Shown: piece by piece, positions 10,369-13,678 of the stretch
Layout of the letters: the number at the start of each line of letters is the position of its first letter
Position numbering within the stretch: the stretch's first letter is position 1
DNA from: Promethearchaeota archaeon
GTDB lineage: Archaea; Asgardarchaeota; Lokiarchaeia; Sigyniarchaeales; SOKP01
Assembly (NCBI GenBank): GCA_008080735.1
Contig: SHMW01000011.1
Span: 23,085-87,084 of the forward strand
Direction of reading: 5' to 3'
DNA length: 64,000 nt
Made by a program: the position numbers and the translations under genes
Notes under the pieces: generated by a model
Told to the model about the DNA's origin: nothing
Seen by the model: the letters and a program-made list of their open reading frames with translations, nothing else
The model's database searches: none

Positions 10369-10818
10369 TTAGATTGGTTTAAAATATTCAATATCCGTGA
10401 TCTTTTTCTGACGTCGATCTTTAAAGACAGCTTCAACTCGCATACCCTTTTTAAATTTCTCATGATCAGATTCATTGATAATATGCACGAATCCTGTATC
10501 GGCACCGTCCAGAACAATGATTGCGTATCCAAAGGGCGGTTTTAAAGGCATAACATCGGTTGAGTGGTTGATAATTGTAAATCCTTCAACGGTTCCTTGC
10601 TTTCCTACTTCCGTCCACTCTTCCATTTTTTCAAAACACTCAAAACATACCATTTTTGGAGGAACATATACCTTTCCGCATTTTGGGCATTTCACACCCA
10701 TGATTTTATCTTCCTTTCCGATAGCTTCCATAAATCTCTCAACATAATCACCCGCTGTATGCTTATAAGGAACCTTAATTCTTCCTCTATATATTTTTTT
10801 CTCCTTTTCTTCACTCAT
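10369..10818 (-). CDS. DUF35 OB-fold / zinc-ribbon protein (thiolase partner)
   Basis: KCPKCGKVYVPPKMVCFECF zinc ribbon followed by TVEGFTII...AIIVLDGADTG OB-fold; adjacent to thiolase genes. Confidence 0.88.
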   Translation of the reverse strand: MSEEKEKKIYRGRIKVPYKHTAGDYVERFMEAIGKEDKIMGVKCPKCGKVYVPPKMVCFECFEKMEEWTEVGKQGTVEGFTIINHSTDVMPLKPPFGYAIIVLDGADTGFVHIINESDHEKFKKGMRVEAVFKDRRQKKITDIEYFKPI

Positions 10819-10834
10819 TTTTATTTACCTCCTT

Positions 10835-11320
10835 TTATTCCTCCCTGATTATTTCAAAATACGGAATATCTCCTAAGGTCCCTTCCATCTCGTCTTTAAA
10901 GACTGCTTTCACTCTCTGACCGATTTTCATTTTATTATGGTCCTTTTCATTGATAAAATGCATAGTATAAGTATCTGCACCGTCTAATTGAAAAAGTCCA
11001 TATCCATATGGAAATGGTCTCATCCCTCCTGTTTGAGGATCTACAAATGGATAATTTACAACTGTAAAGCCTACTAAAGTACCAGTAGGAGGAACCTCAA
11101 CCATATCATCCGCAGTCATACGAACTACACATTCTGCACATACACCACGTGGAGGAAAATGCATTTTTCCACATTTAGGACATTTACTTCCAAGTAATTT
11201 CCGTTCCTTCTTAAGTGTATCAAAAAATTTTACCGATAATTTTCCTATCGCATATTTATATGGAAGGTCAGTCTTCCATCTTATTTCAAATGGTTTTTCT
11301 TTTTCATTTTTTTTTCCCAT
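10835..11320 (-). CDS. DUF35 OB-fold / zinc-ribbon protein (thiolase partner)
   Basis: KCPKCGKMHFPPRGVCAECV plus TLVGFTVVNYP...LFQLDGADTYTMHFI. Confidence 0.88.
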   Translation of the reverse strand: MGKKNEKEKPFEIRWKTDLPYKYAIGKLSVKFFDTLKKERKLLGSKCPKCGKMHFPPRGVCAECVVRMTADDMVEVPPTGTLVGFTVVNYPFVDPQTGGMRPFPYGYGLFQLDGADTYTMHFINEKDHNKMKIGQRVKAVFKDEMEGTLGDIPYFEIIREE

Positions 11321-11327
11321 TTTTTAA

Positions 11328-12332
11328 TCACCCCGGTGGTTCATTGCCTAATATAGCTAATTCGGTCCATAATGAGCCTCCAAATCCCATCGCGAGCGCC
11401 TTTTCTGCATCTGGCACTTGTCGCTTTTCTCCCCGATCCATAACTTGTAACGCAGCTTCCGCTATTCGAACCAAAGCAGTTGCACCAATCGGATTAGTAC
11501 TTAAAACTCCTCCTGAAGGATTGACAGGTAATTCGCCGCCCATTTGAGTGATGCCTTCTCTGAGAATTTCACCACCTTTACCAGGTTCAGCAAAACCCAA
11601 AGCTTCGGTCCAAGATAATTCTGCCCAAGACGTTGGTTCATATACTTCTGCCACGTCTAAATCTTTTATTGGATCTTTTATCCCCGCCTTTTTATAAGCT
11701 TTTTTAGAGGCAAATGTGGCTGTGGGTAAATCATACATCTTATCATCGCATCCAAAGGTATAATAATGTGCAGTTGCAACGGAATGGAACCATGCTGGAT
11801 TATCTCGGATCTTTTTAGCTTCACTTTCTTTAGCATAAACCACGGCACATGCGCCCTCGCTTTGAGGACAACAATCGTGGAGTCGTAATGGGTAAGAAAT
11901 CGTTTGAGAACCCATTACATAATCCAAGGTAATATTAGGCATTTGTAAATGCGCAAAAGGATTATTCGCAGCATTACTACGATTTTTCACTGTGACCATT
12001 GCTGCTGTCTCAGGGCTCACATTATATTCATTCATATACATATTCGCCATAAGCGCAAGCGGTCCCAATGCACCTGCAAGGGAAGGGCGCTCCCACACAG
12101 GATCAAAAGCAGTAATGATACCAGTCGTTGCACCGCCTTCATTTAATTTCTCCCAGCCTACCACTAGCACTTTATCGTATATACCCGAGGCTACATTATA
12201 ATATCCACTTATCCCCAAGGAACTCCCCGTTGTACCACCAGTTGCGATTTTCACAACTGGTTTCATAAACCCGGGGGCAGCATCAATTCCACACCACATC
12301 TCTGAGAAGTTAATACCTTCGAAATGATCCAT
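11328..12332 (-). CDS. Thiolase-family protein, main body of a gene interrupted by an in-frame stop
   Basis: PVVKIATGGTTGSSLGISGYYNVASG, VKNRSNAANNPFAHLQ, LPVNPSGGVLSTNPIGAT. The N-terminal thiolase segment lies upstream in the same frame (12357-12521). Confidence 0.85.
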   Translation of the reverse strand: MDHFEGINFSEMWCGIDAAPGFMKPVVKIATGGTTGSSLGISGYYNVASGIYDKVLVVGWEKLNEGGATTGIITAFDPVWERPSLAGALGPLALMANMYMNEYNVSPETAAMVTVKNRSNAANNPFAHLQMPNITLDYVMGSQTISYPLRLHDCCPQSEGACAVVYAKESEAKKIRDNPAWFHSVATAHYYTFGCDDKMYDLPTATFASKKAYKKAGIKDPIKDLDVAEVYEPTSWAELSWTEALGFAEPGKGGEILREGITQMGGELPVNPSGGVLSTNPIGATALVRIAEAALQVMDRGEKRQVPDAEKALAMGFGGSLWTELAILGNEPPG

Positions 12333-12340
12333 TTGGCATC

Positions 12341-12359
12341 TAACGTCGATAAGACGTTA
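12341..12359. repeat. Perfect 7-bp inverted repeat, 5-nt loop, inside the thiolase gene
   Basis: taacgtc gataa gacgtta; on the coding strand it contains the in-frame TAA. Confidence 0.85.
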
Positions 12360-12521
12360 AATGTTACCTATTAGAATAGCATCAATGTCTTTAGGCTCCA
12401 ATTGAGCATCATCTAAAGCCATTTTTACTGCTTCATAGACCATTTCGGGGATATTCACATCCCTCCGTTTACTTCTGAACTTGGTTTGTCCGATTCCTAC
12501 TATTCCTACTTTTTCTGGCAT
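12357..12521 (-). CDS. N-terminal fragment (54 aa) of the interrupted thiolase
   Basis: MPEKVGIVGIGQTKFRSKRRDVNIPEMVYEAVKMALDDAQLEPKDIDAILIGNI*; same frame as ORF 11328-12332; its start overlaps the TAA of the upstream thiolase (TAATG). Absent from the ORF track because it is short. Confidence 0.75.
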   Translation of the reverse strand: MPEKVGIVGIGQTKFRSKRRDVNIPEMVYEAVKMALDDAQLEPKDIDAILIGNI

Positions 12522-13678
12522 TACTTTTCACCTCCAAAAATTAATACACAATTGCCCTGAGAACAGATTCCATTCATCCCATTTGCAAGTCCGAGATTTG
12601 CATTGGGAACTTGGCGTTTTTCAGCTTTTCCCATCAATTGAAGCGCGATCTCTGCCACGCGAATTAATCCATTTGCCATCGTGGGATTACTTGAAAGAAC
12701 ACCACCCGAAGGATTTACGGGTATGGACCCGTTCATTTCAGTTTCACCGCTATCAATAAAATTGCCTCCTTGACCTTTCTTGCAAAAGCCGAGTGCCTCA
12801 TAACTCATTAATTCATGGGTTGAAAATGCATCATAGACCTCTGCCAAGTCCAATTCTTTCTTAGGATCTGTGATTCCCGCCATTTTATATGCTTCCTTCG
12901 CTGCTCCTTCTAATCCTATCAAATCGCTCATATTTCTATGTCCTAAGTAATATGCATCTGTACAACTTGCATAACCCTTTAACCATACGGGACTATCTGT
13001 TAACTCATTTGCCTTCTCTTCATTTGCTAATAACATTGCAACCGCACCATCAGAAAACGGTGGAAAATCTAATTCTTTCAAGGGAAATGCGACCATCGGA
13101 GAATTCAATACATCCTCTAAGGAGACCGCCTCTTGAAGATGGGCATAAGGATTCGATAAGGCGTTTTTTCGATTTTTCACAACAACCTTTGCCGCCTGCT
13201 CTTCTGTCACTCCATACTTAGTCATATACATATTTGCCATCAGCCCCGCCGCAGAGATTTGGTCAAGACCAAGATGTCTTTGGAAAAACGGGTCGAAAAT
13301 ACTATTATTGATCAGATATTGGTCACCCTCTGAACATTTAGTATGGGACACCACCAAGACGGTATCATATTCTCCGGAAAGCACTCGCATAGCACCATAT
13401 ACATATGCAAAGGCGCCATCTCCCGATACTCTTGATTCTGCCTTTCGTACGGATCCAACAGCATCTTGTATCGCCATATTTGCTATCGTTCGACCATCGT
13501 TGAAATCATTAGAGCTGGAAATGACACATCCAACATCATCATTGGTTATTCCCAATTGATTATGCAACTCTTTTACCACCTCAAATACAAGCTCCGATAT
13601 GGTCAATTCGATCTTTTCCTGCTCATATTTAGATTGTGAAACACCACATATTGCTACGTTTCCTTCCATGACTTTCAC
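12521..13678 (-). CDS. Thiolase-family protein (nucleophile Cys replaced by Ser)
   Basis: MEGNVAICGVSQSKY, VSGDGAFAYVYGAMRVLSG, VKNRKNALSNPYAHLQ, IPVNPSGGVLSSNPTMANG. Confidence 0.85.
   Translation of the reverse strand: MKVMEGNVAICGVSQSKYEQEKIELTISELVFEVVKELHNQLGITNDDVGCVISSSNDFNDGRTIANMAIQDAVGSVRKAESRVSGDGAFAYVYGAMRVLSGEYDTVLVVSHTKCSEGDQYLINNSIFDPFFQRHLGLDQISAAGLMANMYMTKYGVTEEQAAKVVVKNRKNALSNPYAHLQEAVSLEDVLNSPMVAFPLKELDFPPFSDGAVAMLLANEEKANELTDSPVWLKGYASCTDAYYLGHRNMSDLIGLEGAAKEAYKMAGITDPKKELDLAEVYDAFSTHELMSYEALGFCKKGQGGNFIDSGETEMNGSIPVNPSGGVLSSNPTMANGLIRVAEIALQLMGKAEKRQVPNANLGLANGMNGICSQGNCVLIFGGEK

Follow-up and report, generated by a model that had tools for sequence, protein, structure and literature searches.

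A thiolase-family gene interrupted by 30 nt

The stretch analyzed here (the window) comprises 64,000 nt of contig SHMW01000011.1 from a Lokiarchaeal metagenome-assembled genome (GCA_008080735.1; 4.1 Mb in 140 contigs), coded G000 below, with other genomes coded likewise. On its minus strand, a frame opens at ATG 12521 with the N-terminus of a thiolase, meets a TAA at 12359–12357, and then remains open in that frame until the stop at 11328, as a first-pass annotation of the window had described. The extra segment, put there at about 30 nt, is exactly 30 nt long against intact orthologs (12362–12333, minus strand, ATTTAACGTCTTATCGACGTTAGATGCCAA) and lies between ...LIGN and MDHFEG. Excision at the standard bulge positions of archaeal bulge–helix–bulge (BHB) introns recovers exactly the orthologous protein of 387 residues (...LIGN-MDHFEG...). 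Very probably, therefore, given this and the data below, the insert is a 30-nt archaeal BHB pre-mRNA intron, removed by the tRNA-splicing enzyme and belonging to a population of ~30–33-nt introns that occupy several conserved positions in genes of Lokiarchaeia. The parts of the gene are the following:

12363–12521, minus: exon 1 of the thiolase-family gene, 53 codons MPEKVG...AILIGN (gap-free alignment to intact orthologs; weak Thiolase_N match)
12333–12362, minus: 30-nt intron ATTTAACGTCTTATCGACGTTAGATGCCAA holding the in-frame TAA (missing from 21 orthologs read across; same site and length in five other species)
11328–12332, minus: exon 2 of the thiolase-family gene, 334 codons and stop, MDHFEGINF... 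(Thiolase_C_1 domain, E 1.7e-29; purifying selection)

The predicted spliced junction, in DNA letters, is GGTAAC/ATGGATCA (a slash marks the junction here and below), and the predicted junction-spanning peptide is DIDAILIGNMDHFEGINFSEMWCGIDAAPGFMKPVVK. In exon 2, dN/dS is 0.014 between this gene and that of G072, and 0.008–0.13 in the remaining pairs; judged from the sequence comparisons, both exons are evolving under strong constraint. No terminator- or promoter-like site is present at the hairpin. With the Rfam covariance models, the 64-kb window yields zero families at the gathering score, group I and group II introns included, and 30 nt is much below ribozyme size; an intron of either group does not fit. 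At 12515–12525, the stop of the upstream thiolase gene overlaps the ATG of the split gene (TAATG), which suggests translational coupling.

Anatomy of the predicted BHB motif

The BHB is the motif recognized by the archaeal splicing endonuclease, whose cleavage point lies between bulge residues two and three (PMC2738675; PMC6379350). In the thiolase gene, exon 1 ends with GGTA-AC, the intron starts with A-TTTAACGTC and ends with GACGTTAGA-TGCC-AA, and exon 2 starts with A-TGGATC, so that two 3-nt bulges stand on either side of a 4-bp helix:

12365–12368, minus: central helix, 5′ strand GGTA in exon 1 (4/4 pairs with the intron 3′ end in six species; bias to the Gly codon GGT)
12362–12364, minus: 5′ bulge AC^A, predicted cut 12363/12362 (between the second and third bulge nucleotides, PMC2738675; own geometry)
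12353–12361, minus: intron helix, 5′ strand TTTAACGTC (9/9 pairs; compensatory changes at two pairs across species)
12348–12352, minus: loop TTATC, 5 nt (anatomy and fold)
12339–12347, minus: intron helix, 3′ strand GACGTTAGA (anatomy and cross-species pairing)
12335–12338, minus: central helix, 3′ strand TGCC in the intron (anatomy and cross-species pairing)
12332–12334, minus: 3′ bulge AA^A, predicted cut 12333/12332 (BHB geometry)

The inverted repeat noticed in the first pass at 12341–12359 is real but longer than noted, forming either a simple hairpin of 11 bp or an intron helix of 9 bp with a separate exon–intron helix of 4 bp. The partner of GGTA is TGCC in this gene and TGCT or TACT in the other species; over all the sites described below, three or four of the four central pairs form. 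The folding energy of the 60-nt region is −15.4 kcal/mol, versus −7.3 for shuffled sequences (z = −3.8; 0/200 shuffles equally stable). When the insert is dinucleotide-shuffled 200,000 times, the in-register 9-bp helix arises 16 times, and never combined with the 4-bp central helix. The thiolase introns of the six species diverge in sequence and retain the structure: all 78 cells are paired (78/78), two pairs have changes in both partners, and the covariation score is matched by one of 500 shuffles. As the Gly codon that feeds the central helix, 6/6 intron-bearing genes use GGT, versus 2/23 intronless ones (Fisher p = 6e-5), a bias to which co-inheritance with the intron may contribute.

Presence and absence among relatives

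A search with the ungapped protein through 79 genomes of the host's order gives close orthologs in about 29. In six species of five genera (G000, G021, G026, G033, G048, and G060), a 30-nt insert with stops is found at the identical position, the other five having an early TAA or TGA within it. The alignment of orthologs had been proposed in the first-pass annotation; since five other species carry such an insert at that site, the insert is neither chance nor an error of a single assembly. The contigs of the bearers belong to separate public assemblies (e.g., NJBI01000021, JAGXNP010000066, JAHLWP010000010, and JAUWRB010000198). There is no insert in the 21 close orthologs that read across the site, and the partial G068 and distant G076 sequences are also uninterrupted. 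In the nearest sister, G072 (protein 96% identical), the gene is insert-free with the exact join ...GGC AAC ATG GAT.... The refuting outcome envisaged in the first pass, uninterrupted orthologs beside a unique decayed copy, holds only by half: most orthologs are indeed uninterrupted, but the copy is not unique.

On the thiolase tree, six changes are needed for the intron, and every bearer adjoins intronless genes. Between the genes of G048 and of intronless G057 there are 21 differences over 1170 positions, seven of them clustered in a 57-nt interval that surrounds the intron (p = 3e-5, for an interval picked after inspection), and the upstream changes in G048 mostly agree with the intron-bearing allele of G060. 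Such a pattern is the one expected from a very recent intron gain with co-conversion. The G033 gene is a mosaic, with the same intron as in G048. A covariance model of the thiolase intron, applied to 228 genomes of the phylum, finds the six known introns only; three weaker matches and one in the host genome were rejected, being in uninterrupted open reading frames or intergenic DNA, or near-copies of such a match.

Probable introns of the same kind in other genes

A BHB scan of 2.38 Mb (57%) of the host genome, followed by reading of the proteins, gives three more genes with introns, and thus four genes of the same design in all. Those three, and a gene of G073, are the following (named from recognizable motifs and ortholog searches, not from a family-library scan):

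L153 6924–6895 (G000:C18), minus: MoxR-like AAA ATPase, 30-nt BHB intron with in-frame TAA, QRL/NDSRFG, TCAGGAATTAAATTATAATTTCTGGATCAA
L185 14395–14366 (G000:C49), minus: AMP/thymidine phosphorylase, 30-nt BHB intron, DKHS/TGGVPGNK
L120 17748–17717 (G000:C4), minus: ABC transporter ATPase, 32-nt BHB intron, LFLDEPT/TGVD
L259 (G073:C10), about 139068–140008: one ATPase gene of 283 codons with three BHB introns, one within Walker A

In other genera, the MoxR-like gene is uninterrupted at the site occupied in the host (QRL/N). In G073, of the same genus, it has three introns, at GEPG/TGKT (in Walker A), QRL/N, and KAD/IEFPND; the third site is occupied also in G072 and G044, and the first in G014. 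For the AMP phosphorylase, reading of the sequences shows an occupied site in G000, G018, and G019; from search matches alone, the gene is ~30 nt longer with stops in seven further species (G036 partly covered) and is split there in G073 and G021, so that about 11 species besides the host seem to have the site occupied. For the ABC gene, the intron was read in G000 and G019, and search matches alone show a split there in five more; at least six species besides the host thus have this site interrupted.

Over 18 introns at six sites, 223/234 expected pairs form, of which 22 (22/234) are G.U. Pairs were counted by anatomy instead of from a MAFFT alignment, which is meaningless over unrelated introns. 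In one representative per site, 74/78 pairs form, versus at most 42 after swapping the 3′ strands between sites. When BHBs are ranked by structure alone, the best or second-best one recovers the conserved protein at nearly all sites; one helix mismatch has to be allowed in the AMP phosphorylase, and a mismatch at site B of G073. The introns are mostly 30–31 nt long, and those of 31 and 32 nt alter the frame.

Splicing enzymes and tRNA introns of the host

Two genes of the EndA family are present in the host genome (on L063 and L064). The first has the catalytic EndA subunit of Aeropyrum pernix as its closest match (E 2e-37) and retains the catalytic His and Lys; the second is more distant and without the catalytic His. 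Such a pair agrees with an endonuclease of the hetero-oligomeric type, for which relaxed motifs are acceptable substrates, presumably as an (alpha-beta)2 assembly. There are also two genes for the RtcB ligase. Among 28 tRNA-like loci above the cut-off, two have clear introns of 27–28 nt with the same shape as the mRNA introns (a helix of 8–9 bp and a central helix of 4 bp):

L092 (G000:C22): tRNA gene with a 27–28-nt BHB intron, design nearly matching the mRNA introns
L095 (G000:C88): tRNA gene with a 27–28-nt BHB intron, design nearly matching the mRNA introns

Further tRNA-like loci, 100–130 nt long, probably carry introns too. Compared by eye, the thiolase intron and the tRNA introns of the host have no apparent sequence kinship; a derivation of the mRNA introns from tRNA introns is possible.

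Assessment of the BHB assignment and of the alternatives

Some observations weigh against a BHB intron. On the thiolase sequences alone, the simple 11-bp hairpin does about equally well (98.5% of cells paired), with the exception of G021, where that hairpin is broken and the BHB intact. The outer exon helix beside the bulge is only ~2 bp long in the host gene, and weak and variable at the other sites; the motif is therefore a relaxed BHB, and relaxed BHB motifs are known EndA substrates (PMC6379350). Raw BHB scans are not enriched over decoy bulge geometries (39 vs. 31–48 matches in 1.65 Mb; 457 vs. 438–484 in 2.38 Mb), so that structure alone does not find the introns and homology is required; most raw-scan matches are chance or gene boundaries. 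Rejected candidates from the scans are L138, L155, L185 (plus strand), L113, L116, L157, and L165, in which exon 2 is open unspliced or the junction is spanned by no single protein.

The first-pass annotation had listed several origins for the split gene without choosing, RNA-level excision of the 30 nt among them. The latter is now strongly supported by the sequence comparisons and narrowed to a BHB intron processed by EndA and RtcB. Stop read-through is ruled out by the introns of 31 and 32 nt, which break the frame. Programmed translational bypass, in which the ribosome would hop over the 30-nt hairpin in the manner of phage T4 gene 60 or the mitochondrial byp elements, would account for a short hairpin with a stop right after the take-off position and a frame open on both sides. 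However, the codon before the gap and the triplet before the resumption point match in 0/18 cases, and the thiolase gap slides by at most 2 nt; in the AMP phosphorylase (G018, G019) and the ABC gene, the next contiguous codon is Lys and not the conserved Thr; and the conserved 4-bp exon–intron helix would have no role. Bypass is thus highly improbable. A thiolase made of two polypeptides, ending at the TAA and restarting at ATG 12332 with re-initiation aided by the hairpin, is equally improbable: exon 2 does open with ATG, a spacer of 27 nt is plausible, and the inserts of the five other species have an early TAA or TGA, but the Met of exon 2 is internal in all intact orthologs and no Shine–Dalgarno-like sequence lies upstream of ATG 12332. 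Elements of the same class, moreover, split Walker A (GEPG/TGKT) and the ABC motif DEPT/TGVD, for which functional halves are hardly conceivable.

We give as little credence to a recent insertion or pseudogenization of a dispensable thiolase copy, or to an assembly error. The absence of the insert from the nearest sister, G072, and the catalytically unusual look of both thiolase-type proteins would fit such a history. Yet the insert occurs in independent assemblies of five other species, the exons are strongly constrained (the exon 2 dN/dS of 0.014 speaks against decay), compensatory changes preserve the hairpin, and the same design occurs in four genes of the host genome. Excision at the level of DNA (programmed deletion or phase variation) is the least probable of all. 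It could explain near-identical genes with and without the insert (G048 vs. G057, otherwise about 99% identical), but G.U pairs (22/234) are useful in RNA only, the geometry matches EndA substrates, and mixed contigs were not seen among assembled contigs (as distinct from reads).

Proposed splicing pathway and known archaeal introns

The anatomy, the conservation, the exact restoration of the protein, the pattern of presence and absence, and the encoded enzymes are read directly; from them we infer that the BHB introns are cut out, that the exons are ligated, and how the introns spread. In the transcript, GGUAAC (the final 6 nt of exon 1) and the intron would form the BHB, a splicing endonuclease of the (alpha-beta)2 type would make one cut per 3-nt bulge, and RtcB would join the exons into an mRNA for the uninterrupted 387-residue thiolase-family protein. 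Among lineages, the introns would be gained and lost, in part at least through recombination in which adjoining exon sequence is copied along. More broadly, it is likely that Lokiarchaeia carry stereotyped BHB introns of 30–33 nt in many coding genes, at conserved sites and with up to three per gene, spread by short-tract recombination with exon co-conversion and removed by the tRNA machinery; this would be the first multi-gene pre-mRNA splicing system known from archaea, and it would be found in relatives of eukaryotes.

BHB introns are standard in archaeal tRNA and rRNA. A pre-mRNA intron in crenarchaeal cbf5 was reportedly described by Watanabe in 2002. The cbf5 pre-mRNA BHB intron of Crenarchaeota (Yokobori 2009; PMC2738675) likewise lies in a conserved coding gene, is an EndA substrate with an unconventional BHB, shows lineage-specific presence and absence, and has hosts with hetero-oligomeric EndA. 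There, however, one gene and one site are concerned, whereas in Lokiarchaeia no fewer than four genes and six sites are affected, as many as three introns occur in one gene, the length is a stereotyped ~30 nt, and gain appears to have been repeated, with co-conversion. In Haloferax volcanii, the BHB intron of HVO_1309, also an EndA substrate in mRNA, is in the 5′ untranslated region and not in coding sequence; besides this case, that report (2020) gives the one in cbf5 mRNA as the sole additional archaeal BHB intron reported (PMC7714728). Intron-rich tRNAs are known in the Asgard Atabeyarchaeia and Freyarchaeia (PMC11291895). The BHB introns of archaeal tRNAs are identical in architecture to the Lokiarchaeal mRNA introns, which differ by the mRNA host and, with it, by a weak outer exon helix and co-constrained exon codons. 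The bypass elements (T4 gene 60, byps) share a short hairpin with an in-frame stop that is apparently skipped, but the Lokiarchaeal introns are without matched take-off and landing codons. In the literature covered (preprints and subscription journals lay outside), no BHB introns in Asgard coding genes were found. The mechanism is already known, and what is new is the multi-gene, mobile-looking, and stereotyped occurrence in Lokiarchaeia.

If this interpretation is true, pre-mRNA splicing would be a normal step of Asgard gene expression, and these introns would offer a natural system for studying recent intron gain and loss. Gene predictions in such genomes would silently truncate or split real genes, ATPases and metabolic enzymes included. 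There would also be, in the lineage neighboring eukaryotes, a protein-enzyme route to mRNA introns distinct from group II introns.

Genes next to the split thiolase gene

The two neighboring thiolase-type proteins (11328–13678, minus strand) are without an obvious catalytic cysteine at the usual position (KIATGGTTGSSL, ESRVSGDGAFAY). After the thiolase pair, at 10369–11320, come two small zinc-ribbon/OB-fold (ChsH2-like) genes, and together they may form a non-classical acyl-transfer complex.
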